Positions 27,801 to 57,495 of a DNA stretch of 64,000 nt are shown piece by piece. A program made the translations under genes and the position numbers. The DNA comes from Thysanoteuthis rhombus (Eukaryota; Mollusca; Cephalopoda; Oegopsida; Thysanoteuthidae). Each line of letters opens with the position of its first letter. Within the stretch, counting starts at the first letter, position 1. The notes beneath the pieces were generated by a model that searched no databases, had not been told where the DNA came from, and saw only the letters and a list, made by a program, of their open reading frames with translations. The stretch is taken from the NCBI GenBank assembly GCA_963457665.1, contig OY735205.1:25695191-25759190 (forward strand), written 5' to 3'.

Positions 27801-27909
27801 TATATGTATATTGTCTCAATAATAATAATAATAACAATAATTTTAATTATAATTATAAGTGGTAGTTGTAACATTTGGACCGCAGGCCCCTACCCTGAAT
27901 GAGCCCTGT

Positions 27910-28533: not shown

Positions 28534-28748
28534 ATCGCTCGACGGGATTACTGTTACATTTTTTGGCAAAAAAAAAAAGACAAGTTTCCTGCGACCACAC
28601 CGAACAAGATTACGGACTAGTAGGACCCCCTTGAAACTCTAGTTCGAAAAGATAAGCCCTTGTTGTTTTTTCGATTTGATTCGATTTTTTTTTTTTGTTC
28701 CGATTTTTTTGTTGTTTGTCTTGATTTTGTATTTTTTTCTTTTCCTTC

Positions 28749-31058: not shown

Positions 31059-31067
31059 ATTAACAAG

Positions 31068-34000: not shown

Positions 34001-34517
34001 TAACAACGAGGCGTCCCTCACCTGGCTAGTCATACGGAATGCTCTCTGGGTCGGCAAACGGCTTTTTGCAGCGGGTCTGGTAGTTTCACCAGAGTGCATG
34101 CGCTGTGGTGGAATGGAGGAGTCTATTGAGCACGCCTTCTTCCACTGCAGCGTGGTGCATCCGCTGTGCAAGCTGGTTGAAGGCCACATGGTTCGCATTG
34201 TCGGGGCACGGTTTTTTGCCTTGGATGCCAGTGTTGTCTGCAGCAATGTGTTCCCATCGTTGGAGAAGGACGCACATATAGTGCTAATGTGCTTACTTGG
34301 CGTGATGCGAATGGTGATTTGGACGACGCGTCAGAAGGAGTTCCACGAAGGAGAGCATTTCACTCCCGAACAACTGATTGCGTTCTTTGGGCACCAGCTC
34401 AAAGTCAAAATCAGGGTCGAGAGGGGGAGGCTCCCTTGGTCGGAATTCAACGGAAGGTGGGTGAGAGTTGCCCGACTGTGTCGAGTGAAAGGTGCTGAAT
34501 TAGAGTGGTTTTTTTAA
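31068..34517 (+). CDS. ORF2 of unit 1: APE endonuclease-reverse transcriptase
   Basis: 1149 codons. The APE endonuclease spans about 1-235, with Asn9, Glu38 in QETHF, Asp139-Asn141 in GDWNAV, and Asp229-His230 in SDH: a full catalytic set. The reverse transcriptase spans about 445-780: 'TPGIDGLPYEVY', 'NFRPITLLN', motif A with Asp585 in KLDQSKAFDRVDH, motif B VRQGCPLSP, motif C AYVDD with Asp689/Asp690, and motif E 'ILGVWFG'. A C-terminal Cys-X2-Cys-X8-His-X4-Cys lies at 1010-1027. It should nick target DNA and copy the element RNA from the nick. Compared with units 2-5, unit 1 alone has Thr422, Thr454, an altered KEKNGG near 508, Arg933, His1031 and Glu1091. None hits a catalytic residue. 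Translation is probably by reinitiation after ORF1. Confidence 0.95.
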   Translation: MALYLASLNGRGCRNESRRARLCRLLRHLDVSICCLQETHFISSDNESVLSRDFRLFSAYFDYRSRGVSWLISHSLNAVCSLVYADPAGRLCVVDVTIRGEAFRLIGVYAPNGQGERINFFRQIDQFVVPSRRLVLAGDWNAVLDPDIDRGVNRGTNNGDVIPFRDLINRLDLVDKFRNEHPRQVVWTWTNSGDPSSVQRSSYIDRVLARRVDHKFLECPSFHSVPFSDHRLVRARMNLGIAKPFKSGYWKFNTSLVDMEDFRDQLTSLIQRELTGAILGNKFWGNLKNKIRSFAADYSRRLNLVRLAAQKALEDRIERAVEGGDSSQVKIAKAELASLHAKKDQALVVRARLKRMSPEATNMADELRLEEIRSASSRYISSVTSPDGRLVTTNEGICEVFRANFQELFTREARLNSAQFDTYLADFPRLEATEAAGCEGPITEDEIREALKSTEKEKTPGIDGLPYEVYLRLSPIFVHLLALIFNHWLKQGRIPSRFTRGVVKLLCKEKNGGDGVDNFRPITLLNTELKILAKVLANRLQTVLESLIGPEQTCSVKGRTIQDNLHTVRTIIEKVDNGAALIKLDQSKAFDRVDHRFLESVLSASGFGEIFRSWIRLLYASPSSVVEVNGVRSKAFQLSRSVRQGCPLSPMLYILALEPFLRKVKANPVLRGLTLPGGHTPVKYTAYVDDITLLVTSSAEIREISVEIQRYETVTGAKANCGKSEGLLLDSWRGRSLPGPFAWTEGPCKILGVWFGPDLQLEKNWSGVLEKVEKAVDLWTRRKLSFKGRAEVCVSHIYPLILYRLSVLPLPCTDQQKLEGAMFRLLWGHRHPMVSRKICQLQPAEGGLGMPNIKARQHSLRLTFLGRMCTQEEQNGEFWKEDARKAFPALRNVHSDDGGEARRRPRAECSFYRECRHALRVFSRVKVCLNDTRSLSRRALYRVIVRGSVRDEMIEGLGLTKAESRSIWPWTPGLRCLNNNEASLTWLVIRNALWVGKRLFAAGLVVSPECMRCGGMEESIEHAFFHCSVVHPLCKLVEGHMVRIVGARFFALDASVVCSNVFPSLEKDAHIVLMCLLGVMRMVIWTTRQKEFHEGEHFTPEQLIAFFGHQLKVKIRVERGRLPWSEFNGRWVRVARLCRVKGAELEWFF

Positions 34518-34740
34518 GATCTATTGGTTAATTAAGGATTTTGCAGTCCTGACACGAACGTGCTAACCCAGCCCAGGTTAGGATAGATTAGATTTTCCTT
34601 TTCTGTTAGCCAACAGTTTCTTAGCTAGGGAGAGAATGATCATCAGCCCCCCTTTTTTTCTGTCCTTCACTTTTTTTCGATTCCCATTCCCTCCCCCTCT
34701 AGATGACAGAAGGTAAAGTTTTCCAGAGGATGTTTGAGAG

Positions 34741-34779
<39 letters not shown>

Positions 34780-35207
34780 CTTCTGTCTCAACATCCATCT
34801 TTTCGTCTGGTTAACTTACTGTTCTGCCATGTTAGGTCTTTTGTGGGGGGTCACATACTAATTTCGTTTTCGTTTTTTTTTTTCTGTAAATATATATCAG
34901 TCATTGGGGTTCATTTTTATTTGTAAATATTCATCATAATTTTATTCCCCCCCCACACACAAAATTGTAAATAGGGGTTTAGAGTAGTTTTTACATCATA
35001 GAGAGAATCTGACTTTATGGTAAATGCAGTATGAAAGAGACCAGGAAAAATGTGTTGTTTTGGTGAATGGATGTATATAGTGTGATTGGGTCAGTGCATG
35101 AGACTAGCTAAGATAAGATTAGGAATAGAGTTGACCAGTCCTTATACCCCATTCCCCCCTTCGACTTCATGTCATATTTCTCTCTTTCAGAGAATAAATA
35201 ATCACAG
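34518..35207 (+). other. 3' UTR of unit 1
   Basis: 690 bp, non-coding. In order it has a hairpin (CTAACC at 34,563-34,568 pairing with GGTTAG at 34,576-34,581), a 37-T run (34,743-34,779), an 11-T run (34,873-34,883), a C8 run, a TATATAG near 35,074, a pyrimidine-rich stretch ending in CAG (35,171-35,190), and the terminal hairpin plus poly(A) signal. There is no poly(A) tail at the end. Confidence 0.85.
35181..35207 (+). terminator. Unit 1 3' terminus: hairpin, AATAAA, end
   Basis: A 5-bp hairpin TCTCT-TTC-AGAGA (35,181-35,193) overlaps the canonical polyadenylation signal AATAAA (35,193-35,198). Nine bases later the unit ends at CACAG and the next unit begins. A signal only 9 nt from the end is close for normal cleavage, so the RNA may be cleaved inside the next unit. 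Confidence 0.7.
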
Positions 35208-35416
35208 ATCGCTCGACGGGATTGTTGTTACCTTTTTTTGGCAAAAAAGACAAGTTTCCTGCGACCACACCGAACAAAATAACGGACTAGTAGGACCCCC
35301 TTGAAACTCTAGTTCGAAAAGATAAGCCCTTGTTGTTTTTTCGATTTGACTCGATTTTTTTTTTGTTCCGATTTTTTTGTTGTTTGTCTCGATTTTGTAT
35401 TTTTTTCTTTCCCTTC

Positions 35417-37722
35417 ATGGCCGACGAGGCCAGGAGGGCCTTGTTTGCTTCCCCCGATAAGGGGGAGGGCGGGGGCACATCCACACCCCCTAAAATAGGG
35501 AAAAAAACAAAAAAAAACAAGAAAAAATGTCTACATCACAGACAAACAGTACAAGTGAAAAGAATTCAGACATGAAAAAATCCCCCGTCCATGAAGGGAG
35601 GGGGGAAAATACAGACTCGCCGATTCCGGCGGGACAACAACAACAACAGGAAAAGACAAGTGGGGACTCTCCTAACGTTTGGTCATCCCCTCCCGTAATA
35701 AATACAGTCAATGTGGCGGAATTCGTCAAGCGTTGCCAGACATACAGTCACCTTGTAAAAGAGGACGGCTTACTGGTGGACTTGGTCGAATTGAAAGACA
35801 TTGAAAAGAAAATGGTGTCCGTCTTTTTGGTCGACAAGAAGTCAAACCGAATTGTCCGATCAAACAAAGACATAGTGTTGAAAGCACTGGCTAGCTTAGG
35901 AATCAAAGCCAAACAAGTTGTTAAAGGCGATGGCTTTGCGATGTGGGACGTACTATTGCCCACTGAACAGGACTGTTCAGATCTCCTGCGCCGAGAGCTC
36001 CAAACAAAGGAGCATTACATTCGTGTTGAGTATCTCGGCCGGAGAAGGACCCGGGTAATAGCACATGAGGTGCCCAGCTTCGTACTCGGGGAACATATCG
36101 GGGCTTTTCTCCTGAAATACGGAGAAATTGTCTCGGTTGACTCCGAGGCGATGCGTGGGGAGTGGCGTTTTGATCTTATGATCGACAGGAAGGCGTTCCT
36201 GGCCATTCCCAACTATTTGGACATAGGTGGTCGGAGGCGACTGCCTCTTATCGTAAAAGGTAGGAGGCCAGTCTGCTGGATATGCGGGGAGGCCGGTCAC
36301 CTCGCCGCTATCTGCAAAAAGAAACCGTCCAGCCTGACGCAAGACCCTTCCCACTCAGTTTCTGTGACCGCCCAAAAGGAGGCTCCCGTAGTCTCGCCTA
36401 CTGCCATGACTGGAGGAATCCAGTCAGATGCCGGGAGAGGTAAAAGTCTCCCCTCACCTAAACCGTCGACTCCGTCACCAAAGGTGGTGGCACAAAAAGA
36501 GAAGACGGAGGGGGAGTGGCAGGTAGTAGGTCGTAGTGGGAAGAAGGCCCAAATAGAGGTACCCCTGTTGCCACATAGCCTAAAGCGAACCGACACCGAC
36601 AGTCCCCAAGGAGAGACCCCGCAGTCTTATGCGGAACGGGCTAGAGTGGGGGGTTATGCTAGTCCAAGTCGTGAAAAAAAAGAAATGGCGGCGGCGTTGC
36701 TCATAAAACTTAAGTCCAGACAGCCAGCAGAGAGGGTTACCCCTCCACCCTCTCCCCGAACAATACACAGTCCTTCAATCAAAAAATCACCCCCCAAAAA
36801 AACAGAATTGACAGTTTTAAAAAAATCACCCCCCAAAGAATCACAATTGACAGTCCTAAAAAAATCTTCCCCCCAAAAAACTGAAATAACAACTTTGAAA
36901 AAATCCCCCCCCAAAAAAACAGAACTGACAACATCTCCCAGACACACACCCAGACACACACCAAAGAAAAATCAGACAGTGCCAGAACCTACATCTTCTC
37001 CAACTCCTCCATTGCCGCCCACTCTACTGTTATTTCCACAACCTCCCCCGCCACCGCCGCCGCCGCCGCCGCCATCACCGCCGCCGTCGTCGTCCCCCCC
37101 ATCAACACCATCAACAATATCAACAACACCAACACCTACACAAACACCAACACAATCGGCCTCACAAAAGAGGCCGAGAAGCCCAGCCGGGGGAGACGCC
37201 GGCGAGCCGACCAAAAAGGAGAAAAAAGTACGACACAAGAGAGGGGTCCACATCTGCCGTGTCGACCCGGACATTATAGAAAAATCGAAGCTTCAGCAGC
37301 AAGCCCTAAGGAATTTAAAAGTCCTCCACAGTTTCCGGTTCGTCGAGCCCGGAAGACGCGACGTGGAGGACCCCACCTTGTTCCCAGGGCTTAAAAAGCT
37401 GCTAACAGTAGTCCGGGTCGGAGACACCTCGCGGCAGGTGTGGGATATGCTCCGGGAGGCCAATGGGGCCTTCCAAATGACCACACCACTGGCTGTCTGG
37501 CATCATCCAGACTTGCAGAAACTCAAGAACTTTTGCTCAGGGAGGGTCCCCGTCTACATGCACCCCTCCCTTTATAGGGCAGCAAAACTAACATTCCCTA
37601 GGCACGTCGGCGGCGTGTCCCTGGATGGCTCCATCAGAACTGAGATGGGCACTGATCCTATGGGACCCGCTGTCGGTGTGCTATCACCGGCAATGTTCGC
37701 GTCAGGAGGGCAACGCCAATAG
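35417..37722 (+). CDS. ORF1 of unit 2, frameshifted near the N-terminus
   Basis: The usual start (MADEARRALF) is at 35,417. The A-rich stretch at 35,501-35,520 reads A7-C-A9-C where the other units have one more base, so this frame ends near 35,575. The second conserved Met (MSTSQT, 35,527) opens an intact 731-codon frame to 37,722 that retains the RRM-like region, the CCHC knuckle, the KKSPPKK repeats, the poly-Pro run and the C-terminal domain. Only about 37 basic, low-complexity residues would be lost. The gene may work from the second Met, be rescued by slippage on the A-run, or be an artefact of homopolymer sequencing. It also differs from unit 1 by Tyr for Phe in the C-terminal 'RVPVFMHP'. 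Confidence 0.85.
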
Positions 37723-37731
37723 ATTAACAAG

Positions 37732-40700
37732 ATGGCTCTCTATTTAGCAAGTTTGAATGGTCGTGGTTGCCGGAATGAGTCGAGAAGAGCTAGACTCTGT
37801 CGTCTCCTCCGGCACCTCGACGTGAGTATTTGTTGTTTACAGGAGACTCATTTTATTTCGAGCGACAATGAGAGTGTGCTGTCTCGAGATTTCCGTCTCT
37901 TTTCAGCATATTTTGATTACCGCTCCAGAGGTGTCTCTTGGCTAATAAGCCATTCTTTGAATGCGGTGTGTTCCCTTGTGTATGCAGACCCGGCGGGCAG
38001 ATTGTGCGTCGTTGATGTTACCATAAGAGGGGAGGCTTTTCGTCTGATTGGGGTTTATGCGCCCAACGGCCAGGGTGAGCGAATCAACTTCTTTCGGCAG
38101 ATCGATCAGTTCGTAGTTCCGTCGAGACGGCTAGTGTTAGCGGGTGATTGGAATGCCGTCCTTGATCCCGATATAGACCGAGGGGTAAATAGGGGAACTA
38201 ACAACGGTGACGTGATTCCGTTTCGGGATTTGATCAACAGGCTTGACCTGGTGGATAAATTCCGAAACGAACACCCCCGCCAAGTAGTATGGACTTGGAC
38301 TAATAGTGGCGACCCGAGTTCGGTGCAACGTTCCAGTTACATCGATCGGGTCTTAGCTAGAAGAGTCGACCATAAGTTTTTGGAATGTCCAAGTTTCCAT
38401 AGCGTGCCCTTTTCGGACCATAGATTAGTAAGGGCCCGAATGAATTTAGGTATAGCTAAGCCCTTCAAGTCTGGTTACTGGAAATTCAACACATCCCTCG
38501 TGGATATGGAGGATTTTCGGGACCAGCTAACATCACTAATCCAGCGGGAACTGACGGGGGCTATCCTGGGTAATAAATTCTGGGGGAACCTCAAAAACAA
38601 AATTAGGTCTTTTGCTGCCGATTACAGTAGGCGACTCAACCTAGTGAGACTAGCGGCACAAAAGGCACTAGAAGATCGGATCGAGAGGGCGGTGGAGGGA
38701 GGGGACTCTAGCCAGGTTAAGATAGCTAAGGCAGAGTTGGCCTCCTTGCATGCCAAGAAGGATCAAGCTCTAGTAGTTAGAGCTAGATTAAAAAGAATGT
38801 CCCCCGAGGCAACGAATATGGCCGATGAGCTGAGGCTAGAAGAAATTAGGAGTGCGTCTAGTCGGTATATCTCCAGCGTCACATCGCCGGACGGACGTCT
38901 TGTGACCACAAACGAAGGTATCTGTGAGGTGTTTCGTGCCAATTTTCAGGAACTATTCACCAGGGAAGCTAGACTGAATTCGGCTCAGTTCGACGCCTAT
39001 TTAGCTGACTTCCCTCGCCTTGAGGCGACTGAAGCAGCTGGGTGCGAGGGGCCCATAACAGAGGATGAAATCCGGGAAGCGTTAAAGAGCATCGAGAAGG
39101 AGAAGACACCGGGGATCGATGGTTTACCTTACGAAGTGTATTTGAGGCTGTCGCCCATTTTTGTTCACTTGCTGGCTTTGATCTTTAACCACTGGTTAAA
39201 GCAGGGGAGAATCCCCAGCCGCTTTACCAGAGGGGTAGTGAAATTGCTATGCAAGGACAAAGATGGAGGGGACGGGGTAGATAACTTCAGGCCCATAACT
39301 CTGCTCAATACAGAGTTGAAGATTTTGGCCAAGGTCCTCGCCAACCGACTGCAGACTGTGCTGGAGAGTCTGATTGGCCCCGAGCAGACTTGCTCTGTAA
39401 AGGGTCGGACTATCCAAGACAATCTGCACACGGTGCGCACGATCATTGAGAAAGTCGACAATGGAGCCGCGCTGATCAAGTTAGATCAGTCCAAAGCATT
39501 CGATAGGGTCGACCATCGTTTTCTCGAGTCCGTCTTATCCGCGTCTGGCTTCGGTGAGATCTTTCGCTCCTGGATTCGTCTCTTGTATGCATCCCCCAGC
39601 TCGGTGGTGGAAGTGAATGGAGTGAGGTCGAAAGCCTTTCAGTTGTCCAGATCAGTTCGTCAAGGTTGTCCACTTTCGCCGATGCTGTACATTCTTGCGC
39701 TGGAACCTTTCCTGCGCAAAGTAAAGGCGAATCCGGTCCTGCGCGGGCTAACCTTGCCTGGTGGTCACACGCCAGTCAAGTATACCGCCTACGTTGATGA
39801 CATAACTTTGCTTGTAACGAGCAGTGCCGAGATCAGGGAAATCAGCGTAGAGATCCAAAGGTATGAGACGGTGACAGGGGCCAAAGCCAACTGCGGCAAG
39901 TCTGAGGGCTTGTTGCTGGACTCGTGGAGAGGGCGCTCTCTCCCTGGTCCCTTTGCCTGGACGGAAGGGCCGTGCAAGATACTCGGCGTCTGGTTCGGTC
40001 CCGACCTCCAGTTGGAGAAAAATTGGTCGGGTGTACTGGAAAAGGTAGAGAAAGCAGTTGATCTGTGGACTCGGAGGAAGCTCTCCTTCAAGGGTAGGGC
40101 CGAGGTGTGCGTCTCTCACATCTACCCCCTTATCCTTTACCGACTTTCAGTGCTCCCTCTTCCGTGTACCGACCAACAAAAGTTGGAAGGTGCCATGTTT
40201 CGACTCCTATGGGGTCACAGGCACCCCATGGTATCTCGCAAGATCTGTCAGCTCCAACCTGCGGAAGGCGGCCTAGGAATGCCGAACATCAAAGCTCGGC
40301 AACATAGCCTACGCTTGACTTTCTTAGGTCGGATGTGTACGCAAGAAGAGCAGAACGGCGAATTCTGGAAAGAAGACGCCAGGAAGGCTTTCCCAGCCTT
40401 AAGAAACGTGCATTCCGACGACGGGGGTGAGGCCCGCCGTAGACCCCGGGCGGAATGCTCTTTCTATCGAGAATGCCGACACGCTCTCCGAGTTTTTTCT
40501 CGGGTGAAGCTATGCCTCAACGACACCCAGTCGTTGTCGAGGAGGGCATTATATCGGGTAATAGTGAGGGGGTCCGTTCGAGACGAAATGATCGAGGGGC
40601 TCGGTTTAACGAAGGCGGAGAGTCGCTCAATCTGGCCTTGGACGCCCGGACTGAGGTGCCTCAATAACAACGAGGCGTCCCTCACCTGGCTAGTTATACG

Positions 40701-41181
40701 GAATGCTCTCTGGGTCGGCAAACGGCTTTTTGCAGCGGGTCTGGTAGTTTCACCAGAGTGCATGCGCTGTGGTGGAATGGAGGAGTCTATTGAGCACGCC
40801 TTCTTCCACTGCAGCGTGGTGCAGCCGCTGTGCAAGCTGGTTGAAGGCCACATGGTTCGCATCGTCGGGGCACGGTTTTTTGCCTTGGATGCCAGTGTTG
40901 TCTGCAGCAATGTGTTCCCATCGTTGGAGAAGGACGCACATATAGTGCTAATGTGCTTACTTGGCGTGATGCGAATGGTGATTTGGACGACGCGTCAGAA
41001 GGGGTTCCACGAAGGAGAGCGTTTCACTCCCGAACAACTGATTGCGTTCTTTGGGCACCAGCTCAAAGTCAAAATCAGGGTCGAGAGGGGGAGACTCCCT
41101 TGGTCGGAATTCAACGGAAGGTGGGTGAGAGTTGCCCGACTGTGTCGAGTGAAAGGTGCTGAATTAGAGTGGTTTTTTTGA
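37732..41181 (+). CDS. ORF2 of unit 2: APE endonuclease-reverse transcriptase
   Basis: 1149 codons, uninterrupted, with every endonuclease and polymerase motif listed for unit 1 conserved. Private difference: Leu927 where the others have Val. It shares Gly1091 and Gln1031 with units 3-5, and Arg1097 with unit 5 only (His in units 1, 3 and 4). It ends in TGA. Position-by-position sharing with different neighbours points to past exchange between units. Confidence 0.95.
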   Translation: MALYLASLNGRGCRNESRRARLCRLLRHLDVSICCLQETHFISSDNESVLSRDFRLFSAYFDYRSRGVSWLISHSLNAVCSLVYADPAGRLCVVDVTIRGEAFRLIGVYAPNGQGERINFFRQIDQFVVPSRRLVLAGDWNAVLDPDIDRGVNRGTNNGDVIPFRDLINRLDLVDKFRNEHPRQVVWTWTNSGDPSSVQRSSYIDRVLARRVDHKFLECPSFHSVPFSDHRLVRARMNLGIAKPFKSGYWKFNTSLVDMEDFRDQLTSLIQRELTGAILGNKFWGNLKNKIRSFAADYSRRLNLVRLAAQKALEDRIERAVEGGDSSQVKIAKAELASLHAKKDQALVVRARLKRMSPEATNMADELRLEEIRSASSRYISSVTSPDGRLVTTNEGICEVFRANFQELFTREARLNSAQFDAYLADFPRLEATEAAGCEGPITEDEIREALKSIEKEKTPGIDGLPYEVYLRLSPIFVHLLALIFNHWLKQGRIPSRFTRGVVKLLCKDKDGGDGVDNFRPITLLNTELKILAKVLANRLQTVLESLIGPEQTCSVKGRTIQDNLHTVRTIIEKVDNGAALIKLDQSKAFDRVDHRFLESVLSASGFGEIFRSWIRLLYASPSSVVEVNGVRSKAFQLSRSVRQGCPLSPMLYILALEPFLRKVKANPVLRGLTLPGGHTPVKYTAYVDDITLLVTSSAEIREISVEIQRYETVTGAKANCGKSEGLLLDSWRGRSLPGPFAWTEGPCKILGVWFGPDLQLEKNWSGVLEKVEKAVDLWTRRKLSFKGRAEVCVSHIYPLILYRLSVLPLPCTDQQKLEGAMFRLLWGHRHPMVSRKICQLQPAEGGLGMPNIKARQHSLRLTFLGRMCTQEEQNGEFWKEDARKAFPALRNVHSDDGGEARRRPRAECSFYRECRHALRVFSRVKLCLNDTQSLSRRALYRVIVRGSVRDEMIEGLGLTKAESRSIWPWTPGLRCLNNNEASLTWLVIRNALWVGKRLFAAGLVVSPECMRCGGMEESIEHAFFHCSVVQPLCKLVEGHMVRIVGARFFALDASVVCSNVFPSLEKDAHIVLMCLLGVMRMVIWTTRQKGFHEGERFTPEQLIAFFGHQLKVKIRVERGRLPWSEFNGRWVRVARLCRVKGAELEWFF

Positions 41182-41403
41182 AATCTATTGGTTAATTAAG
41201 GATTTTGCAGTCCTGACACGAACGTGCTAACCCAGCCCAGGTTAGGATAGATTAGATTTTCCTTTTCTGTTAGCCAACAGTTTCTTAGCTAGGGAGAGAA
41301 TGATCATCAGCCCCCCTTTTTTTTTCTGTCCTCCACTTTTTTCGATTCCCATCCCCTCCCCCTCTAGATGACAGAAGGTAAAGTTTTCCAGAGGATGTTT
41401 GAG

Positions 41404-41435
<32 letters not shown>

Positions 41436-41864
41436 CTCGACATCCATCTTTTCGTCTGGTTAACTTACTGTTCTGCCATGTTGGGTCTTTTGTGGGGGGT
41501 CACATACTAATTTCGTTTTCGTTTTTTTTTTTTTTTTTTCTGTAAATATGTATCAGTCATTGGGGTTCGTTTTTGTTTGTAAATGTTCATCATGATTTTG
41601 TTCCCCCCCCACACACAAAAATTGTAAATAGGGGTTTGGAGTAGTTTTTACATCATAGAGAGAGTCTGACTTTATGGTGAATGCAGTGTGAGAGAGACCA
41701 GGAAAAATGTGTTGTTTTGGTGAATGGATGTATATAGTGTGATTGGGTCAGTGCATGAGACTAGCTAAGATAAGATTAGGAATAGAGTTGACCAGTCCTT
41801 ATACCCCATTCCCCCCTTCGACTTCATGTCATATTTCTCTCTCTCAGAGAATAAATAATCACAG
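41182..41864 (+). other. 3' UTR of unit 2, with an A-to-G cluster
   Basis: 683 bp with the same plan as unit 1. Between 41,483 and 41,692, twelve positions are G where the other four units all have A: 41483, 41550, 41569, 41575, 41585, 41594, 41600, 41638, 41664, 41679, 41688 and 41692. In that stretch I see no other substitution private to unit 2, only run-length differences. The poly(A) signal is at 41,850-41,855. The preceding hairpin here has one T-to-C change. Confidence 0.85.
41850..41864 (+). terminator. Unit 2 3' terminus and poly(A) signal
   Basis: AATAAATAATCACAG, identical to the other units, and followed at once by the unit 3 leader. Confidence 0.7.
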
Positions 41865-42074
41865 ATCGCTCGACGGGATTGTTGTTACCTTTTTTTGGCA
41901 AAAAAGACAAGTTTCCTGCGACCACACCGAACAAAATAACGGACTAGTAGGACCCCCTTGAAACTCTAGTTCGAAAAGATAAGCCCTTGTTGTTTTTTCG
42001 ATTTGACTCGATTTTTTTTTTGTTCCGATTTTTTTGTTGTTTGTCTCGATTTTGTATTTTTTTTCTTTCCCTTC

Positions 42075-44342
42075 ATGGCCGACGAGGCCAGGAGGGCCTT
42101 GTTTGCTTCCCCCGATAAGGGGGAGGGCGGGGGCACATCCACACCCCCTAAAATAGGGAAAAAAAACAAAAAAAAACAGGAAAAAATGTCTACATCACAG
42201 ACAGTCAGTACAAGTGAAAAGAATTCAGACATGAAAAAATCCCCCGTCCATGAAGGGAGGGGGGAAAATACAGACTCGCCGATTCCGGCGGGACAACAAC
42301 AACAACAAGAAAAGACAAGTGGGGACTCTCCTAACGTTTGGTCATCCCCTCCCGTAATAAATACAGTCAATGTGGCGGAATTCGTCAAGCGTTGCCAGAC
42401 ATACAGTCACCTTGTAAAAGAGGACGGCTTACTGGTGGACTTGGTCGAATTGAAAGACATTGAGAAAAAAATGGTGTCCGTCTTTTTGGTCGACAAGAAG
42501 TCAAACCGAATTGTCCGATCAAACAAAGACATAGTGTTGAAAGCACTGGCTAGCTTAGGAATCAAAGCCAAACAAGTTGTTAAAGGCGATGGCTTTGCGA
42601 TGTGGGACGTACTATTGCCCACTGAACAGGACTGTTCAGATCTCCTGCGCCGAGAGCTCCAAACGAAGGAGCATTACATTCGTGTTGAGTATCTCGGCCG
42701 GAGAAGGACCCGGGTAATAGCACATGAGGTGCCCAGCTTCGTACTCGGGGAACATATCGGGGCTTTTCTCCTGAAATACGGAGAAATTGTCTCGGTTGAC
42801 TCCGAGGCGATGCGTGGGGAGTGGCGTTTTGATCTTATGATCGACAGGAAGGCGTTCCTGGCCATTCCCAACTATTTGGACATAGGTGGTCGGAGGCGAC
42901 TGCCTCTTATCGTAAAAGGTAGGAGGCCAGTCTGCTGGATATGCGGGGAGGCCGGTCACCTCGCCGCTATCTGCAAAAAGAAACCGTCCAGCCTGACGCA
43001 AGACCCTTCCCACTCAGTTTCTGTGACCGCCCAAAAGGAGGCTCCCGTAGTCTCGCCTACTGCCATGACTGGAGGAATCCAGTCAGATGCCGGGAGAGGT
43101 AAAAGTCTCCCCTCACCTAAACCGTCGACTCCGTCACCAAAGGTGGTGGCACAAAAAGAGAAGACGGAGGGGGAGTGGCAGGTAGTAGGTCGTAGTGGGA
43201 AGAAGGCCCAAATAGAAGCACCCCTGTTGCCACATAGCCTAAAGCGAACCGACACCGACAGTCCCCAAGGAGAGACCCCGCAGTCTTATGCGGAACGGGC
43301 TAGAGTGGGGGGTTATGCTAGTCCAAGTCGTGAAAAAAAAGAAATGGCGGCGGCGTTGCTCATAAAACTCAAGTCCAGGCAGCCAGCAGAGAGGGTTACC
43401 CCTCCACCCTCTCCCCGAACAATACAAAGTCCTTCAATAAAAAAATCACCCCCCAAAGGAACACAATTGACAGTTTTAAAAAAATCTTCCCCCCAAAAAA
43501 CTGAAACAACAATTTTGAAAAAATCCCCCCCCAAAAAAACAGAACTGACAACATCTCCCAGACACACACCCAGACACACACCCAAGAAAAATCAGACAAA
43601 ACCAGAACTCACATCTTCTCCAACTCCTCCATTGCCGCCCACTCTACTGTTATTTTCGCAACCTCCCCCGCCACCGCCGCCGCCGCCGCCGCCATCACCG
43701 CCGCCGTCGTCGTCCCCCCCATCAACACCATCAACAATATCAACAACACCAACACCTACACAAACACCAACACAATCGGCCTCACAAAAGAGGCCGAGAA
43801 GCCCAGCCGGGGGAGACGCCGGCGAGCCAACAAAAAAAGAAAAAAAAGTGAGACACAAGAGAGGGGTCCACATCTGCCGTGTCGACCCGGACATTATAGA
43901 AAAATCGAAGCTTCAGCAGCAAGCCCTAAGGAATTTAAAAGTCCTCCACAGTTTCCGGTTCGTCGAGCCCGGAAGACGCGACGTGGAGGACCCCACCTTG
44001 TTCCCAGGGCTTAAAAAGCTGCTAACAGTAGTCCGGGTCGGAGACACCTCGCGGCAGGTGTGGGATATGCTCCGGGAGGCCAATGGGGCCTTCCAAATGA
44101 CCACACCACTGGCTGTCTGGCATCATCCGGACTTGCAGAAACTAAAAAACTTTTGTTCAGGGAGGGTCCCCGTCTTTATGCACCCCTCCCTTTATAGGGC
44201 AGCAAAATTAACATTCCCTAGGCACGTCGGCGGCGTGTCCCTGGATGGCACCATCAGAACTGAGATGGGCACTGATCCTATGGGACCCGCTGTCGGTGTG
44301 CTATCACCGGCAATGTTCGCGTCAGGAGGGCAACGCCAATAG
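42075..44342 (+). CDS. ORF1 of unit 3: RNA-binding gag-like protein
   Basis: 755 codons from MADEARRALF. The frame is open for 24 more codons upstream (from 42,003), but that extension is T-run-encoded Phe-rich sequence and is not conserved in unit 1, so I take the shared ATG. One KKSPPKK-type repeat fewer than units 1 and 2, and two tandem RHTP tetrapeptides. It has 'NQTKPELTSSP' where units 1 and 2 have 'NQTVPEPTSSP'. Zinc knuckle and C-terminal domain are intact. Confidence 0.9.
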   Translation: MADEARRALFASPDKGEGGGTSTPPKIGKKNKKKQEKMSTSQTVSTSEKNSDMKKSPVHEGRGENTDSPIPAGQQQQQEKTSGDSPNVWSSPPVINTVNVAEFVKRCQTYSHLVKEDGLLVDLVELKDIEKKMVSVFLVDKKSNRIVRSNKDIVLKALASLGIKAKQVVKGDGFAMWDVLLPTEQDCSDLLRRELQTKEHYIRVEYLGRRRTRVIAHEVPSFVLGEHIGAFLLKYGEIVSVDSEAMRGEWRFDLMIDRKAFLAIPNYLDIGGRRRLPLIVKGRRPVCWICGEAGHLAAICKKKPSSLTQDPSHSVSVTAQKEAPVVSPTAMTGGIQSDAGRGKSLPSPKPSTPSPKVVAQKEKTEGEWQVVGRSGKKAQIEAPLLPHSLKRTDTDSPQGETPQSYAERARVGGYASPSREKKEMAAALLIKLKSRQPAERVTPPPSPRTIQSPSIKKSPPKGTQLTVLKKSSPQKTETTILKKSPPKKTELTTSPRHTPRHTPKKNQTKPELTSSPTPPLPPTLLLFSQPPPPPPPPPPPSPPPSSSPPSTPSTISTTPTPTQTPTQSASQKRPRSPAGGDAGEPTKKEKKVRHKRGVHICRVDPDIIEKSKLQQQALRNLKVLHSFRFVEPGRRDVEDPTLFPGLKKLLTVVRVGDTSRQVWDMLREANGAFQMTTPLAVWHHPDLQKLKNFCSGRVPVFMHPSLYRAAKLTFPRHVGGVSLDGTIRTEMGTDPMGPAVGVLSPAMFASGGQRQ

Positions 44343-44351
44343 ATTAACAAG

Positions 44352-47300
44352 ATGGCTCTCTATTTAGCAAGTTTGAATGGTCGTGGTTGCCGGAATGAGT
44401 CGAGAAGAGCTAGACTCTGTCGTCTCCTCCGGCACCTCGACGTGAGTATTTGTTGTTTACAGGAGACTCATTTTATTTCGAGCGACAATGAGAGTGTGCT
44501 GTCTCGAGATTTCCGTCTCTTTTCAGCATATTTTGATTACCGCTCCAGAGGTGTCTCTTGGCTAATAAGCCATTCTTTGAATGCGGTGTGTTCCCTTGTG
44601 TATGCAGACCCGGCGGGCAGATTGTGCGTCGTTGATGTTACCATAAGAGGGGAGGCTTTTCGTTTGATTGGGGTTTATGCGCCCAACGGCCAGGGTGAGC
44701 GAATCAACTTCTTTCGGCAGATCGATCAGTTCGTAGTTCCGTCGAGACGGCTAGTGTTAGCGGGTGATTGGAATGCCGTCCTTGATCCCGATATAGACAG
44801 AGGGGTAAATAGGGGAACTAATAACGGTGACGTGATTCCGTTTCGGGATTTGATCAACAGGCTTGACCTGGTGGATAAATTCCGAAACGAACACCCCCGC
44901 CAAGTAGTATGGACTTGGACTAATAGTGGCGACCCGAGTTCGGTGCAACGTTCCAGTTACATCGATCGGGTTTTAGCTAGAAGAGTCGACCATAAGTTTT
45001 TGGAATGTCCAAGTTTCCATAGCGTCCCCTTTTCGGACCATAGATTAGTAAGGGCCCGAATGAATTTAGGTATAGCTAAGCCCTTCAAGTCTGGTTACTG
45101 GAAATTCAACACATCCCTCGTGGATATGGAGGATTTTCGGGACCAGCTAACATCACTAATCCAGCGGGAACTGACGGGGGCTATCCTGGGTAATAAATTC
45201 TGGGGGAACCTCAAAAACAAAATTAGGTCTTTTGCTGCCGATTACAGTAGGCGACTCAACCTAGTGAGACTAGCGGCACAAAAGGCACTAGAAGATCGGA
45301 TCGAGAGGGCGGTGGAGGGAGGGGACTCTAGCCAGGTTAAGATAGCTAAGGCAGAGTTGGCCTCCTTGCATGCCAAGAAGGATCAAGCTCTAGTAGTTAG
45401 AGCTAGATTAAAAAGAATGTCCCCCGAGGCAACGAATATGGCCGATGAGCTGAGGCTAGAAGAAATTAGGAGTGCGTCTAGTCGGTATATCTCCAGCGTC
45501 ACATCGCCGGACGGACGTCTTGTGACCACAAACGAAGGTATCTGTGAGGTGTTTCGTGCCAATTTTCAGGAACTATTCACCAGGGAAGCTAGACTGAATT
45601 CGGCTCAGTTCGACGCCTATTTAGCTGACTTCCCTCGCCTTGAGGCGACTGAAGCAGCTGGGTGCGAGGGGCCCATAACAGAGGATGAAATCCGGGAAGC
45701 GTTAAAGAGCATCGAGAAGGAGAAGACACCGGGGATCGATGGTTTACCTTACGAAGTGTATTTGAGGCTGTCGCCCATTTTTGTTCACTTGCTGGCTTTG
45801 ATCTTTAACCACTGGTTAAAGCAGGGGAGAATCCCCAGCCGCTTTACCAGAGGGGTAGTGAAATTGCTATGCAAGGACAAAGATGGAGGGGACGGGGTAG
45901 ATAACTTCAGGCCCATAACTCTGCTCAATACAGAGTTGAAGATTTTGGCCAAGGTCCTCGCCAACCGACTGCAGACTGTGCTGGAGAGTCTGATTGGCCC
46001 CGAGCAGACTTGCTCTGTAAAGGGTCGGACTATCCAAGACAATCTGCACACGGTGCGCACGATCATTGAGAAAGTCGACAATGGAGCCGCGCTGATCAAG
46101 TTAGATCAGTCCAAAGCATTCGATAGGGTCGACCATCGTTTTCTCGAGTCCGTCTTATCCGCGTCTGGCTTCGGTGAGATCTTTCGCTCCTGGATTCGTC
46201 TCTTGTATGCATCCCCCAGCTCGGTGGTGGAAGTGAATGGAGTGAGGTCGAAAGCCTTTCAGTTGTCCAGATCAGTTCGTCAAGGTTGTCCACTTTCGCC
46301 GATGCTGTACATTCTTGCGCTGGAACCTTTCCTGCGCAAAGTAAAGGCGAATCCGGTCCTGCGCGGGCTAACCTTGCCTGGTGGTCACACGCCAGTCAAG
46401 TATACCGCCTACGTTGATGACATAACTTTGCTTGTAACGAGCAGTGCCGAGATCAGGGAAATCAGCGTAGAGATCCAAAGGTATGAGACGGTGACAGGGG
46501 CCAAAGCCAACTGCGGCAAGTCTGAGGGCTTGTTGCTGGACTCGTGGAGAGGGCGCTCTCTCCCTGGTCCCTTTGCCTGGACGGAAGGGCCGTGCAAGAT
46601 ACTCGGCGTCTGGTTCGGTCCCGACCTCCAGTTGGAGAAAAATTGGTCGGGTGTACTGGAAAAGGTAGAGAAAGCAGTTAATCTGTGGACTCGGAGGAAG
46701 CTCTCCTTCAAGGGTAGGGCCGAGGTGTGCGTCTCTCACATCTACCCCCTTATCCTTTACCGACTTTCAGTGCTCCCTCTTCCGTGTACCGACCAACAAA
46801 AGTTGGAAGGTGCCATGTTTCGACTCCTATGGGGTCACAGGCACCCTATGGTATCTCGCAAGATCTGTCAGCTCCAACCTGCGGAAGGCGGCCTAGGAAT
46901 GCCGAACATCAAAGCTCGGCAACATAGCCTACGCTTGACTTTCTTAGGTCGGATGTGTACGCAAGAAGAGCAGAACGGCGAATTCTGGAAAGAAGACGCC
47001 AGGAAGGCTTTCCCAGCCTTAAGAAACGTGCATTCCGACGACGGGGGTGAGGCCCGCCGTAGACCCCGGGCGGAATGCTCTTTCTATCGAGAATGCCGAC
47101 ACGCTCTCCGAGTTTTTTCTCGGGTGAAGGTATGCCTCAACGACACCCAGTCGTTGTCGAGGAGGGCATTATATCGGGTAATAGTGAGGGGGTCCGTTCG
47201 AGACGAAATGATCGAGGGGCTCGGTTTAACGAAGGCGGAGAGTCGCTCAATCTGGCCTTGGACGCCCGGACTGAGGTGCCTCAATAACAACGAGGCGTCC

Positions 47301-47801
47301 CTCACCTGGCTAGTCATACGGAATGCTCTCTGGGTCGGCAAACGGCTTTTTGCAGCAGGTCTGGTAGTTTCACCAGAGTGCATGCGCTGTGGTGGAATGG
47401 AGGAGTCTATTGAGCACGCCTTCTTCCACTGCAGCGTGGTGCAACCGCTGTGCAAGCTGGTTGAAGGCCACATGGTTCGCATCGTCGGGGCACGGTTTTT
47501 TGCCTTGGATGCCAGTGTTGTCTGCAGCAATGTGTTCCCATCGTTGGAGAAGGACGCACATATAGTGCTAATGTGCTTACTTGGCGTGATGCGAATGGTG
47601 ATTTGGACGACGCGTCAGAAGGGGTTCCACGAAGGAGAGCATTTCACTCCCGAACAACTGATTGCGTTCTTTGGGCACCAGCTCAAAGTCAAAATCAGGG
47701 TCGAGAGGAGGAGGCTCCCTTGGTCGGAATTCAACGGAAGGTGGGTGAGAGTTGCCCGACTGTGTCGAGTGAAAGGTGCTGAATTAGAGTGGTTTTTTTG
47801 A
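44352..47801 (+). CDS. ORF2 of unit 3: APE endonuclease-reverse transcriptase
   Basis: 1149 codons, open, all catalytic motifs present. The protein is identical to that of unit 4. Both differ from the other units by Asn777 (Asp elsewhere, after the polymerase core) and Arg1120 (Gly elsewhere). Silent differences in the endonuclease region (for example AGACAG for AGACCG near codon 146) are shared with units 4 and 5 but not with 1 and 2. Confidence 0.95.
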   Translation: MALYLASLNGRGCRNESRRARLCRLLRHLDVSICCLQETHFISSDNESVLSRDFRLFSAYFDYRSRGVSWLISHSLNAVCSLVYADPAGRLCVVDVTIRGEAFRLIGVYAPNGQGERINFFRQIDQFVVPSRRLVLAGDWNAVLDPDIDRGVNRGTNNGDVIPFRDLINRLDLVDKFRNEHPRQVVWTWTNSGDPSSVQRSSYIDRVLARRVDHKFLECPSFHSVPFSDHRLVRARMNLGIAKPFKSGYWKFNTSLVDMEDFRDQLTSLIQRELTGAILGNKFWGNLKNKIRSFAADYSRRLNLVRLAAQKALEDRIERAVEGGDSSQVKIAKAELASLHAKKDQALVVRARLKRMSPEATNMADELRLEEIRSASSRYISSVTSPDGRLVTTNEGICEVFRANFQELFTREARLNSAQFDAYLADFPRLEATEAAGCEGPITEDEIREALKSIEKEKTPGIDGLPYEVYLRLSPIFVHLLALIFNHWLKQGRIPSRFTRGVVKLLCKDKDGGDGVDNFRPITLLNTELKILAKVLANRLQTVLESLIGPEQTCSVKGRTIQDNLHTVRTIIEKVDNGAALIKLDQSKAFDRVDHRFLESVLSASGFGEIFRSWIRLLYASPSSVVEVNGVRSKAFQLSRSVRQGCPLSPMLYILALEPFLRKVKANPVLRGLTLPGGHTPVKYTAYVDDITLLVTSSAEIREISVEIQRYETVTGAKANCGKSEGLLLDSWRGRSLPGPFAWTEGPCKILGVWFGPDLQLEKNWSGVLEKVEKAVNLWTRRKLSFKGRAEVCVSHIYPLILYRLSVLPLPCTDQQKLEGAMFRLLWGHRHPMVSRKICQLQPAEGGLGMPNIKARQHSLRLTFLGRMCTQEEQNGEFWKEDARKAFPALRNVHSDDGGEARRRPRAECSFYRECRHALRVFSRVKVCLNDTQSLSRRALYRVIVRGSVRDEMIEGLGLTKAESRSIWPWTPGLRCLNNNEASLTWLVIRNALWVGKRLFAAGLVVSPECMRCGGMEESIEHAFFHCSVVQPLCKLVEGHMVRIVGARFFALDASVVCSNVFPSLEKDAHIVLMCLLGVMRMVIWTTRQKGFHEGEHFTPEQLIAFFGHQLKVKIRVERRRLPWSEFNGRWVRVARLCRVKGAELEWFF

Positions 47802-48457
47802 AAGTCTATTGGTTAGTAAGGATTTTGCAGTCCTGACACGAACGTGCTAACCCAGCCCAGGTTAGGATAGATTAGATTTTCCTTTTCTGTTAGCCAACAG
47901 TTTCTTAGCTAGGGAGAGAATGATCATCAGCCCCCCTTTTTTTTTCTGTCCTCCACTTTTTTCGATTCCCATCCCCTCCCCCTCTAGATGACAGAAGGTA
48001 AAGTTTTCCAGAGGATGTTTGAGAGATTTTTTTTTTGTCTTGACATCCATCTTTTCGTCTGGTTAACTTACTGTTCTGCCACGTTAGGTCTTTTGTGGGG
48101 GGTCACATACTAATTTCGATTTCGTTTTTTTTTCTGTAAATATATATCAGTCATTGGGGTTCATTTTTATTTGTAAATATTCATCATAATTTTATTCCCC
48201 CCCCACACACAAAATTGTAAATAGGGGTCTAGAGTAGTTTTTACATCATAGAGAGAATCTGACTTTATGGTAAATGCAGTATGAAAGAGACCAGGAAAAA
48301 TGTGTTGTTTTGGTAAATGGATGTATATAGTGTGATTGGGTCAGTGCATGAGACTAGCTAAGATAAGATTAGGAATAGAGTTGACCAGTCCTTATACCCC
48401 ACTCCCCCCTTCGACTTCATGTCATATTTCTCTCTTTCAGAGAATAAATAATCACAG
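47802..48457 (+). other. 3' UTR of unit 3
   Basis: 656 bp, non-coding and apparently identical to the unit 4 3' UTR. The main T-run is only 10 T. It retains the CTAACC/GGTTAG hairpin, the TATATAG, the pyrimidine tract and the terminal AATAAATAATCACAG (poly(A) signal 48,443-48,448). Private to units 3 and 4 are a T-to-C change in GGGGTCTAGAG and in GCCACGTTAGG. Confidence 0.85.
48443..48457 (+). terminator. Unit 3 3' terminus and poly(A) signal
   Basis: AATAAATAATCACAG, preceded by the TCTCT/AGAGA hairpin and joined directly to unit 4. Confidence 0.7.
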
Positions 48458-48666
48458 ATCGCTCGACGGGATTGTTGTTACCTTTTTTTGGCAAAAAAGA
48501 CAAGTTTCCTGCGACCACACCGAACAAAATAACGGACTAGTAGGACCCCCTTGAAACTCTAGTTCGAAAAGATAAGCCCTTGTTGTTTTTTCGATTTGAC
48601 TCGATTTTTTTTTTGTTCCGATTTTTTTGTTGTTTGTCTCGATTTTGTATTTTTTTCTTTCCCTTC

Positions 48667-50922
48667 ATGGCCGACGAGGCCAGGAGGGCCTTGTTTGCTT
48701 CCCCCGATAAGGGGGAGGGCGGGGGCACATCCACACCCCCTAAAATAGGGAAAAAAAAACAAAAAAAACAAGAAAAAATGTCTACAACACAGACAGACAG
48801 TACAAGTAAAAAGAATTCAGACATGAAAAAATCCCCCGTCCATGAAGGGAGGGGGGAAAATACAGACTCGCCGATTCCGGCGGGACAACAACAGCAACAA
48901 GAAAAGACAAGTGGGGACTCTCCTAACGTTTGGTCATCCCCTCCCGTAATAAATACAGTCAATGTGGCGGAATTCGTCAAGCGTTGCCAGACATACAGTC
49001 ACCTTGTAAAAGAGGATGGCTTACTGGTGGACTTGGTCGAATTGAAAGACATTGAGAAAAAAATGGTGTCCGTCTTTTTGGTCGACAAGAAGTCAAACCG
49101 AATTGTCCGATCAAACAAAGACATAGTGTTGAAAGCACTGGCTAGCTTAGGAATCAAAGCCAAACAAGTTGTAAAAGGCGATGGCTTTGCGATGTGGGAC
49201 GTACTATTGCCCACTGAACAGGACTGTTCAGATCTCCTGCGCCGAGAGCTCCAAACGAAGGAGCATTACATTCGTGTTGAGTATCTCGGCCGGAGAAGGA
49301 CCCGGGTAATAGCACATGAGGTGCCCAGCTTCGTACTCGGGGAACATATCGGGGCTTTTCTCCTGAAATACGGAGAAATTGTCTCGGTTGACTCCGAGGC
49401 GATGCGTGGGGAGTGGCGTTTTGATCTTATGATCGACAGGAAGGCGTTCCTGGCCATTCCCAACTATTTGGACATAGGTGGTCGGAGGCGACTGCCTCTT
49501 ATCGTAAAAGGTAGGAGGCCAGTCTGCTGGATATGCGGGGAGGCCGGTCACCTCGCCGCTATCTGCAAAAAGAAACCGTCCAGCCTGACGCAAGACCCTT
49601 CCCACTCAGTTTCTGTGACCGCCCAAAAGGAGGCTCCCGTAGTCTCGCCTACTGCCATGACTGGAGGAATCCAGTCAGATGCCGGGAGAGGTAAAAGTCT
49701 CCCCTCACCTAAACCGTCGACTCCGTCACCAAAGGTGGTGGCACAAAAAGAGAAGACGGAGGGGGAGTGGCAGGTAGTAGGTCGTAGTGGGAAGAAGGCC
49801 CAAATAGAAGCACCCCTGTTGCCACATAGCCTAAAGCGAACCGACACCGACAGTCCCCAAGGAGAGACCCCGCAGTCTTATGCGGAACGGGCTAGAGTGG
49901 GGGGTTATGCTAGTCCAAGTCGTGAAAAAAAAGAAATGGCGGCGGCGTTGCTCATAAAACTCAAGTCCAGGCAGCCAGCAGAGAGGGTTACCCCTCCACC
50001 CTCTCCCCGAACAATACAAAGTCCTTCTATAAAAAAATCACCCCCCAAAGGAACACAATTGACAGTTTTAAAAAAATCTTCCCCCCAAAAAACTGAAACA
50101 ACAATTTTGAAAAAATCCCCCCCCAAAAAAACAGAACTGACAACATCTCCCAGACACACACCCAAGAAAAATCAGACAAAACCAGAACTCACATCTTCTC
50201 CAACTCCTCCATTGCCGCCCACTCTACTGTTATTTTCGCAACCTCCCCCGCCACCGCCGCCGCCGCCGCCGCCATCACCGCCGCCGTCGTCGTCCCCCCC
50301 ATCAACACCATCAACAATATCAACAACACCAACACCTACACAAACACCAACACAATCGGCCTCACAAAAGAGGCCGAGAAGCCCAGCCGGGGGAGACGCC
50401 GGCGAGCCAACAAAAAAAGAAAAAAAAGTGAGACACAAGAGAGGGGTCCACATCTGCCGTGTCGACCCGGACATTATAGAAAAATCGAAGCTTCAGCAGC
50501 AAGCCCTAAGGAATTTAAAAGTCCTCCACAGTTTCCGGTTCGTCGAGCCCGGAAGACGCGACGTGGAGGACCCCACCTTGTTCCCAGGGCTTAAAAAGCT
50601 GCTAACAGTAGTCCGGGTCGGAGACACCTCGCGGCAGGTGTGGGATATGCTCCGGGAGGCCAATGGGGCCTTCCAAATGACCACACCACTGGCTGTCTGG
50701 CATCATCCGGACTTGCAGAAACTAAAAAACTTTTGTTCAGGGAGGGTCCCCGTCTTTATGCACCCCTCCCTTTATAGGGCAGCAAAATTAACATTCCCTA
50801 GGCACGTCGGCGGCGTGTCCCTGGATGGCACCATCAGAACTGAGATGGGCACTGATCCTATGGGACCCGCTGTCGGTGTGCTATCACCGGCAATGTTCGC
50901 GTCAGGAGGGCAACGCCAATAG
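48667..50922 (+). CDS. ORF1 of unit 4: RNA-binding gag-like protein
   Basis: 751 codons from MADEARRALF; 29 further Phe-rich upstream codons are open but not conserved. Near the second Met it reads MSTTQTDSTSKKNS, unlike unit 3 (MSTSQTVSTSEKNS) and closer there to unit 1 (MSTTQT). The downstream part matches unit 3 except for one RHTP instead of two. The protein is thus a mosaic. Zinc knuckle, poly-Pro run and C-terminal domain are intact. Confidence 0.9.
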   Translation: MADEARRALFASPDKGEGGGTSTPPKIGKKKQKKQEKMSTTQTDSTSKKNSDMKKSPVHEGRGENTDSPIPAGQQQQQEKTSGDSPNVWSSPPVINTVNVAEFVKRCQTYSHLVKEDGLLVDLVELKDIEKKMVSVFLVDKKSNRIVRSNKDIVLKALASLGIKAKQVVKGDGFAMWDVLLPTEQDCSDLLRRELQTKEHYIRVEYLGRRRTRVIAHEVPSFVLGEHIGAFLLKYGEIVSVDSEAMRGEWRFDLMIDRKAFLAIPNYLDIGGRRRLPLIVKGRRPVCWICGEAGHLAAICKKKPSSLTQDPSHSVSVTAQKEAPVVSPTAMTGGIQSDAGRGKSLPSPKPSTPSPKVVAQKEKTEGEWQVVGRSGKKAQIEAPLLPHSLKRTDTDSPQGETPQSYAERARVGGYASPSREKKEMAAALLIKLKSRQPAERVTPPPSPRTIQSPSIKKSPPKGTQLTVLKKSSPQKTETTILKKSPPKKTELTTSPRHTPKKNQTKPELTSSPTPPLPPTLLLFSQPPPPPPPPPPPSPPPSSSPPSTPSTISTTPTPTQTPTQSASQKRPRSPAGGDAGEPTKKEKKVRHKRGVHICRVDPDIIEKSKLQQQALRNLKVLHSFRFVEPGRRDVEDPTLFPGLKKLLTVVRVGDTSRQVWDMLREANGAFQMTTPLAVWHHPDLQKLKNFCSGRVPVFMHPSLYRAAKLTFPRHVGGVSLDGTIRTEMGTDPMGPAVGVLSPAMFASGGQRQ

Positions 50923-50931
50923 ATTAACAAG

Positions 50932-54381: not shown

Positions 54382-55037
54382 AAGTCTATTGGTTAGTAAG
54401 GATTTTGCAGTCCTGACACGAACGTGCTAACCCAGCCCAGGTTAGGATAGATTAGATTTTCCTTTTCTGTTAGCCAACAGTTTCTTAGCTAGGGAGAGAA
54501 TGATCATCAGCCCCCCTTTTTTTTTCTGTCCTCCACTTTTTTCGATTCCCATCCCCTCCCCCTCTAGATGACAGAAGGTAAAGTTTTCCAGAGGATGTTT
54601 GAGAGATTTTTTTTTTGTCTTGACATCCATCTTTTCGTCTGGTTAACTTACTGTTCTGCCACGTTAGGTCTTTTGTGGGGGGTCACATACTAATTTCGAT
54701 TTCGTTTTTTTTTCTGTAAATATATATCAGTCATTGGGGTTCATTTTTATTTGTAAATATTCATCATAATTTTATTCCCCCCCCACACACAAAATTGTAA
54801 ATAGGGGTCTAGAGTAGTTTTTACATCATAGAGAGAATCTGACTTTATGGTAAATGCAGTATGAAAGAGACCAGGAAAAATGTGTTGTTTTGGTAAATGG
54901 ATGTATATAGTGTGATTGGGTCAGTGCATGAGACTAGCTAAGATAAGATTAGGAATAGAGTTGACCAGTCCTTATACCCCACTCCCCCCTTCGACTTCAT
55001 GTCATATTTCTCTCTTTCAGAGAATAAATAATCACAG
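54382..55037 (+). other. 3' UTR of unit 4
   Basis: 656 bp, apparently identical to the unit 3 3' UTR, including the 10-T run. The poly(A) signal is at 55,023-55,028. It joins unit 5 directly. Confidence 0.85.
55023..55037 (+). terminator. Unit 4 3' terminus and poly(A) signal
   Basis: Same 15-nt end as the other units, followed by the diverged leader of unit 5. Confidence 0.7.
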
Positions 55038-55257
55038 ATCGCTCGACGGGATTATTGTTACCTTTTTTTGGCAAAAAAAGACAAGTTTCCTGCAACCACA
55101 CTGAACAAGTTTACGGACTAGTAGGACCCCCTCGAAACTCTAGTTCGAAAAGATAAGCCCTTGGTTTTTTGACTCGATTTGACTCAAATTGACTCGATTT
55201 TTTTTATTATTTCGATTTTGTTGTTTGTCTCGATTTTGTATTTTTTTCTTTCCCTTC

Positions 55258-57486: not shown

Positions 57487-57495
57487 ATTAACAAG

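Follow-up and report, generated by a model that had tools for sequence, protein, structure and literature searches.

The window analyzed here is a 64,000-bp stretch of contig C8 in the 2.73-Gb genome of the squid Thysanoteuthis rhombus. It is AT-rich up to ~28.5 kb, after which 6.6-kb LINE units follow, and five full units form a head-to-tail array on the plus strand (28535..61603; units 1 to 5 at 28535-35208, 35209-41865, 41866-48458, 48459-55038 and 55039-61603). In unit 2 (35209..41865, plus strand), ORF1 occupies 35527-37722, ORF2 occupies 37732-41181 and the 3' UTR occupies 41182-41865. ORF1 of this unit contains a zinc knuckle that scored slightly below the Pfam cut-off. ORF2, which is 1149 aa long in the LINE units of the window, matched the APE-type endonuclease, RVT_1 and zf-RVT domains of Pfam, and the nearest solved structure was human L1 ORF2p (1e-77), with R2 at 1e-22 or weaker. 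A T run at 41407-41435 and the equivalent positions of the other units varied in length, with 37 T in unit 1, ~29 in unit 2 and ~10 in units 3 and 4.

The window had no Rfam matches and no hits in a tRNA scan. Among 25 of 354 inverted-repeat matches listed for the window, all were microsatellites, at 13.0 and 20.2 kb. Upstream of the array, at 27909-28178, lies a minisatellite of ~66 bp that is present too in the array flanks on C25, where there are about a dozen copies, and on C36, where the flank gave no Rfam match. The sequence after the array (61604-64000) is other than the target flank found on C25 and C36. It includes an open reading frame at 61762-63177 without a Pfam match at 0.001, and beyond this lies sequence that looks reverse-transcriptase-like by eye.

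The A>G patch in the unit 2 3' UTR

A first-pass annotation of this DNA had noted that unit 2 reads G at twelve positions of its 3' UTR where the other four units read A, and had taken these differences as a possible trace of ADAR editing of an RNA template that was then reverse-transcribed into the array. Our 3' UTR and full-unit alignments returned the same twelve sites within 41483-41692 (41483, 41550, 41569, 41575, 41585, 41594, 41600, 41638, 41664, 41679, 41688 and 41692), with A in units 1, 3, 4 and 5 at every one. Apart from differences in the length of T, C and A runs, unit 2 had no other private substitution in this interval, and the 5' neighbors of the twelve sites were T nine times, A twice, C once and never G, all as the annotation had described. 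Compared with its four array neighbors, unit 2 had 26 private substitutions, 16 of which were A>G; outside the patch there were 14, including 4 A>G. Twelve of the 26 fell within 210 bp, while the maximum for any 210-bp stretch in 20,000 uniform placements was 9. As for polarity, the most distant unit, unit 5, read A at 12/12 sites.

We also examined these alleles in a sample of 43 copies representing 34 distinct 3' UTRs. Of the 34, 6 had G at 41569, a CpG-context site, and 7 had G at 41692 (both on the plus strand, unit 2 included in each count); in an alignment of 69 distinct copies, 32 rows read G at 41692. Because each of these two Gs occurs in several distinct copies, we regard them as subfamily alleles acquired by ordinary inheritance and placed them outside the patch. 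The ten other Gs were present in unit 2 alone among the 34 distinct 3' UTRs. The description of the twelve as a set private to unit 2 therefore stands for ten sites and falls for 41569 and 41692, where G is common to other copies.

The ten A>G changes private to unit 2 (41483..41688, plus strand) are located at 41483, 41550, 41575, 41585, 41594, 41600, 41638, 41664, 41679 and 41688, and all private changes in this stretch were A>G (10/10). When homopolymer columns were skipped, the three 3' UTRs nearest to unit 2 differed from it exactly at these ten sites. The 5' neighbor was T at nine of the sites and A at one, against a background of 21 T-preceded adenosines out of 54 in the span (hypergeometric P = 0.0004). 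After polarizing, there were no G-to-A changes within the patch. We rejected a reversed polarity, in which the other copies would have undergone G-to-A hypermutation, because nearly all copies read A, the closest ones included.

Another possible source of the Gs in unit 2 is a set of old subfamily alleles, or conversion from an older copy. The first genome search scored 40 of 502 candidates, and the check for subfamily alleles covered 97 and later 106 alignment rows (70 distinct copies). The ten-G set was absent from every other copy examined, both in the 40 scored and in the wider alignments. A 27-mer with the Gs at 41585, 41594 and 41600 occurred once in the 2.73-Gb genome, and with up to 2 mismatches it was found in two older copies, one on C37 and the other on C33, where it forms one arm of an inverted pair. 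Of the twelve sites, these two copies read G at only four (41594, 41679, 41688 and 41692), and a copy on C47 read G at 41679 and 41688. A 32-mer with G at 41575 and A or G at three sites matched 300 places with up to 2 mismatches, and among the 100 matches listed unit 2 was the only one with 0 mismatches. The 27-mer 41673-41699 matched 175 places; among the 100 matches listed, its three Gs were seen in unit 2, C37, C47 and, with an extra mismatch, C33. At 41664, G was found in unit 2 and in five old copies (86 places).

The joint presence of G at 41594, 41679 and 41688 in the C37 copy and the C33 arm, together with the five old copies reading G at 41664, is what an older source would predict. 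Unit 2, however, lacks the changes at 41631, 41670 and 41740 and the other changes that mark those copies, and the Gs at 41550, 41575, 41585 and 41600 occurred in none of the other copies examined. An origin of the unit 2 Gs from old alleles or conversion is thus extremely unlikely. We rejected subfamily alleles as the source of the ten Gs and accepted them for 41569 and 41692 only, which are also the only two sites where the G alleles can be called those of a normal subfamily. Gene conversion from an older subfamily was rejected because no further diagnostic base of the older copies was carried along into unit 2. As a separate observation, the C33 minus arm (L074), the C37 copy (L075) and the C47 copy (L096) share G at 41679 and 41688, and two of them share G at 41594 too; judged by these shared bases, they perhaps derive from an edited founder that spread.

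We aligned 32 full units from five arrays and, after dropping five near-duplicates, compared private substitutions in 27. The closest relative lay in another array for 14 of the 32 units. In the array of the window, units 1, 2 and 5 were closest to units of other arrays, and units 3 and 4 were near-duplicates with 10 differences. The closest full unit to unit 2 was C36_4, on another contig, at 58 differences. This lends separate support to the RNA-mediated origin of unit 2 put forward in the first-pass annotation, and a separate retrotransposition of unit 2 would fit it. Among the 27 units, unit 2 had 12 private substitutions, 10 of which fall in the 206-bp patch; the remaining 26 units had 12 A>G among 144 private substitutions, and the longest same-type run outside unit 2 was 3. 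Two observations on the full units were counted against the editing explanation. The first was a weaker same-type grouping in unit C36b_1, in which 4/5 private changes in 300 bp were A>C. The second was that the 3' UTR of unit 2 is nearest to C25_1 and the full unit is nearest to C36_4, which makes unit 2 a mosaic of backgrounds.

Further A>G patches and their neighbor context

Out of 20 additional places that we fetched, two older-subfamily copies, both on C12, had A>G sets of their own. L089 (C12:2543700-2544000, minus strand) carried 6 A>G changes, which in unit 2 coordinates are at 41483, 41638, 41655, 41657, 41664 and 41674, and L090 (C12:2620750-2621050, minus strand) carried 6, at 41664, 41679, 41680, 41681, 41688 and 41691. 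When L090 was compared over a wider span with fewer copies, 5 of its 6 changes were A>G, the other being G>T at 41726, which is present in L091 too. Upstream of the patches, over ~250 bp (~41184-41416 and ~41204-41447), L089 and L090 had one A>G each, and these were identical. The fourth patch copy (C46:32438990-32439290, minus strand) was found with a pattern requiring G at 41638 and 41664. Over 417 aligned bp it differed from unit 3 by 17 A>G, all within 121 bp, plus one extra T in a T run and a C>T where a polymorphism is known. The A/G pattern requiring G at 41638 matched two places, unit 2 and the C46 copy, while its control, a T/C counterpart requiring C at 41637, matched 0 places in the genome. 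A joint pattern for 41664 and 41679 matched unit 2 alone; the base at 41671 keeps L090 from matching it.

For a common count we used 70 distinct 3' UTR copies with enough coverage and scored as private any change by which a copy differed from its three closest copies. Low-coverage copies and the homopolymer columns 41520-41540 and 41602-41615 were dropped before counting, and identical copies were collapsed. In the four patch copies, all 34 of 34 private changes were A>G (12/12, 10/10, 6/6 and 6/6). In the other 66 distinct copies, 16 of 100 private changes were A>G, a figure that takes in copies fetched for G at 41679 or 41688 (it was 7/71 before these were added). Thirty-eight of the 70 distinct copies had no private change. 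An assembly or polishing artefact, for example through the use of edited RNA reads for polishing, would be an exceedingly improbable cause of these patches, since they lie at four loci spread over three contigs, every locus has a site set of its own, and most near-identical copies read A.

The changes were A>G in the element sense in all four copies, with unit 2 on the plus contig strand and the other three on the minus strand. This bears on the stage at which deamination took place. ADARs act on DNA in RNA:DNA hybrids, and deamination on the DNA strand of such a hybrid (an R-loop or a reverse-transcription intermediate), rather than on the RNA template, would be expected to leave A>G with an equal neighbor bias too. 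Editing of first-strand cDNA, however, would give T>C in the element sense, whereas the four patches are A>G on either contig strand, and deamination at the DNA level would have to strike the sense DNA strand every time. We consider this route quite unlikely and favor editing of the RNA.

Pooling the four copies gave 39 A>G events at 28 distinct sites. The 5' bases of the 39 events were T22 A13 C2 G2. In random draws from the adenosines of the same patches, 5' T was expected 13.3 times (22 observed, P 0.0003) and 5' G 7.9 times (2 observed, P 0.0012), and 5' G or C, expected 14.9 times and observed 4 times, was as low in 0 of 20,000 draws. The 3' bases, as raw counts, were T16 A12 G11, with 3' A at 2 of 10 sites in unit 2; section 6 of PMC5625713 reports that invertebrate editing sites favor 3' A. 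PMC6651903 describes molluscan ADAR1 as editing TA, CA and AA, and GA weakly.

The same adenosines recurred among the patch copies, with 15 pairwise shared sites versus 7.2 expected (P 0.003), and 41664 carried an edited-type G in 4/4. The search pattern that found the C46 copy had fixed two of its sites in advance; with this copy left out, the overlap was 7 versus 2.7 expected (P 0.012, or P 0.056 with context weights).

The neighbor bias could also come from errors of a polymerase or reverse transcriptase that struck WA motifs in a local burst, with no deamination involved. One error-prone DNA polymerase has a WA preference, and unit 2 and L089 together have 16 events, 13 of them with 5' T, while 35 of all 39 events have 5' T or A. 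Such errors should give A>T and A>C as well, whereas the common count was 34/34 A>G, and the recurrence of the same adenosines across separate copies also argues against a burst of this kind, which we regard as very unlikely.

Candidate duplexes and host ADAR genes

An imperfect hairpin at 41534..41692 (plus strand) in unedited copies is a weak candidate for the duplex, with z between -0.2 and -1.4 in eight copies. In unit 2 the same stretch gave z +0.5, and the hairpin was not formed. Stretches longer than 41534-41692 folded no better than shuffles, and in six predicted folds the pairing of edited adenosines was not significantly higher than that of the others (P 0.12 to 0.39). The C46 patch ends ~50 bp 3' of the hairpin.

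We found no inverted 3' UTR copy within the window. Elsewhere in the genome, a tail-to-tail inverted pair of LINE 3' UTRs is located on C33 (L074), with arms of ~1250 bp that are 93% identical and a 70-bp spacer, and a second tail-to-tail pair is located at C12:4146200-4147300 (L093). Both are palindromes predicted to form long, almost perfect duplexes: their fold energies were -744 and -752 kcal/mol per ~1100 nt, where units 2 and 3 gave -336 and -337. Judged by coordinates, C12 has four more close inverted pairs, near 2105700, 2614550, 3144100 and 3867600, and the third is partly covered by L023. One C12 inverted pair is ~6 kb from L090. On their sequence, inverted 3' UTR pairs are candidates for the duplex source. 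The first-pass annotation had suggested pairing of the U-runs with a poly(A) tail; we found nothing in favor of this, and both the extent of the C46 patch on the 3' side and the existence of long inverted pairs elsewhere point away from it.

A search of the genome with PF02137 gave 12 matches at four places, and the host thus carries genes for deaminases of the ADAR type. An exon on C38 was nearest to human ADAR2 (1e-98) and contains the letters HAE, PCG and SCSDK, which we take to be ADAR motifs. A reflectin gene cluster, in keeping with a coleoid cephalopod host, was located on C45, with 72-77% identity in the best ten matches to an approximate query. The contigs are chromosome-sized up to at least C47, close to the squid number, which PMC9068888 gives as 46.

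Proposed origin of the patches and related systems

Cephalopods stand out for their RNA editing, the products of which normally vanish with the RNA. The explanation that we consider highly probable for the patches is that hyper-editing of LINE RNA by ADAR was followed by reverse transcription in the germline, and that this happened several times. A transcript of the L1-like LINE would have been double-stranded along part of its 3' UTR, and roughly one adenosine in five of the duplex stretch would have been deaminated by host ADAR. The LINE reverse transcriptase would then have used this edited transcript as its template, with I read as G, to yield a new germline insertion, the present unit 2. 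The same route would account for at least three further copies (two on C12, one on C46). The pure and clustered A>G changes, the three further copies, the neighbor bias, the recurrence of the same adenosines, the nearest full unit on another contig and the ADAR-family genes of the host support the original suggestion that an edited RNA template was reverse-transcribed into the array. We infer the template itself, ADAR as the enzyme and its action on RNA before insertion, and likewise a duplex provided by a local hairpin or by 3' UTR copies in inverted or antisense orientation.

With patches of A>G only in at least four copies, the genome seems to have acquired lasting changes through RNA editing. 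When a retrotransposon returns edits to the germline, they become heritable mutations and a record of germline ADAR activity. Since pure A>G bursts can be counted per copy in any assembled genome, the rate at which ADAR encounters LINE RNA becomes directly measurable. Here, 4 of the 70 distinct 3' UTRs carried an A>G burst, one of them found via a G-allele search. We raise more tentatively the possibility that ADAR is a recurrent heritable mutator of this young LINE family and that edited insertions can become sources in their turn. If so, the LINE 3' UTR would evolve partly through a host RNA editor.

A-to-G hypermutated retroviral proviruses arise when reverse transcriptase copies an edited RNA template; these are retroviral, whereas the patches described here are in inherited copies of a non-LTR element. 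The editing of mammalian retrotransposons at the DNA and RNA levels is reportedly the subject of a book chapter. In titles and the beginnings of abstracts we found no report of genomic LINE copies with A>G editing, which is not proof of absence. A 21-species survey of hyper-editing in animal repeat RNA (PMC5625713) describes dense A-to-G clusters much like ours, with 5' G depleted, in repeats that can pair with inverted copies. It places octopus among the two strongest hyper-editing signals and has truncated LINE 3' ends (chicken CR1) pairing as SINEs do; the clusters of the survey are in RNA reads, whereas the LINE patches are in genomic DNA. Single-type mismatch clusters were likewise used as traces of editing, including in retrotransposons returned to the genome, in a study of genomic traces (PMC2873906). 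In its excerpted text, the clusters in mammalian retrotransposons are G-to-A (APOBEC type) and the A-to-G clusters ascribed to RNA editing come from RNA traces. In RNA editing of malacoherpesvirus (PMC6651903), molluscan ADAR1 has the 5' preference seen in the patches, for T, A or C with weak 5' G; its targets are viral RNAs, unfixed in the host genome, and ours is a retrotransposon.

The junction between units was nearly identical in the five arrays that we read; the two visible exceptions were on C21 and C10. An upstream flank is common to the first units on C8, C21 and C36 and to a further copy start on C36. Among the same five arrays, a downstream flank is common to the last units on C25 and C36, and that of C8 diverges after ~8 bases. 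Among the arrays (that of the window and those on C21, C25, C36 and C10), the shared flanks read GGGGAAATCCACCGTGGG...CACAGA ahead of the first unit and TTGCGAGAC behind the last. The 3' terminus of the LINE is CACAGA. Given this terminus and the shared flanks, an insertion may re-create its own target, and arrays may grow in this way. Site-specific insertion of this type would fit the arrays, and from its flanking sequence the LINE may be target-specific.

Some L1/Tx1-type LINEs are target-specific. The squid LINE resembles them in its two ORFs, in an ORF2 whose endonuclease and reverse transcriptase resemble those of L1 most closely, and in its common flanking sequence. Unlike them, it forms tandem arrays with one shared junction; it is called L1-like here on ORF2 likeness. 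At both C36:12406714 and the 3' end of L107/L108, CACAG runs into GCAC, and on C36 a shortened unit follows; these may be one truncation joint at two loci.
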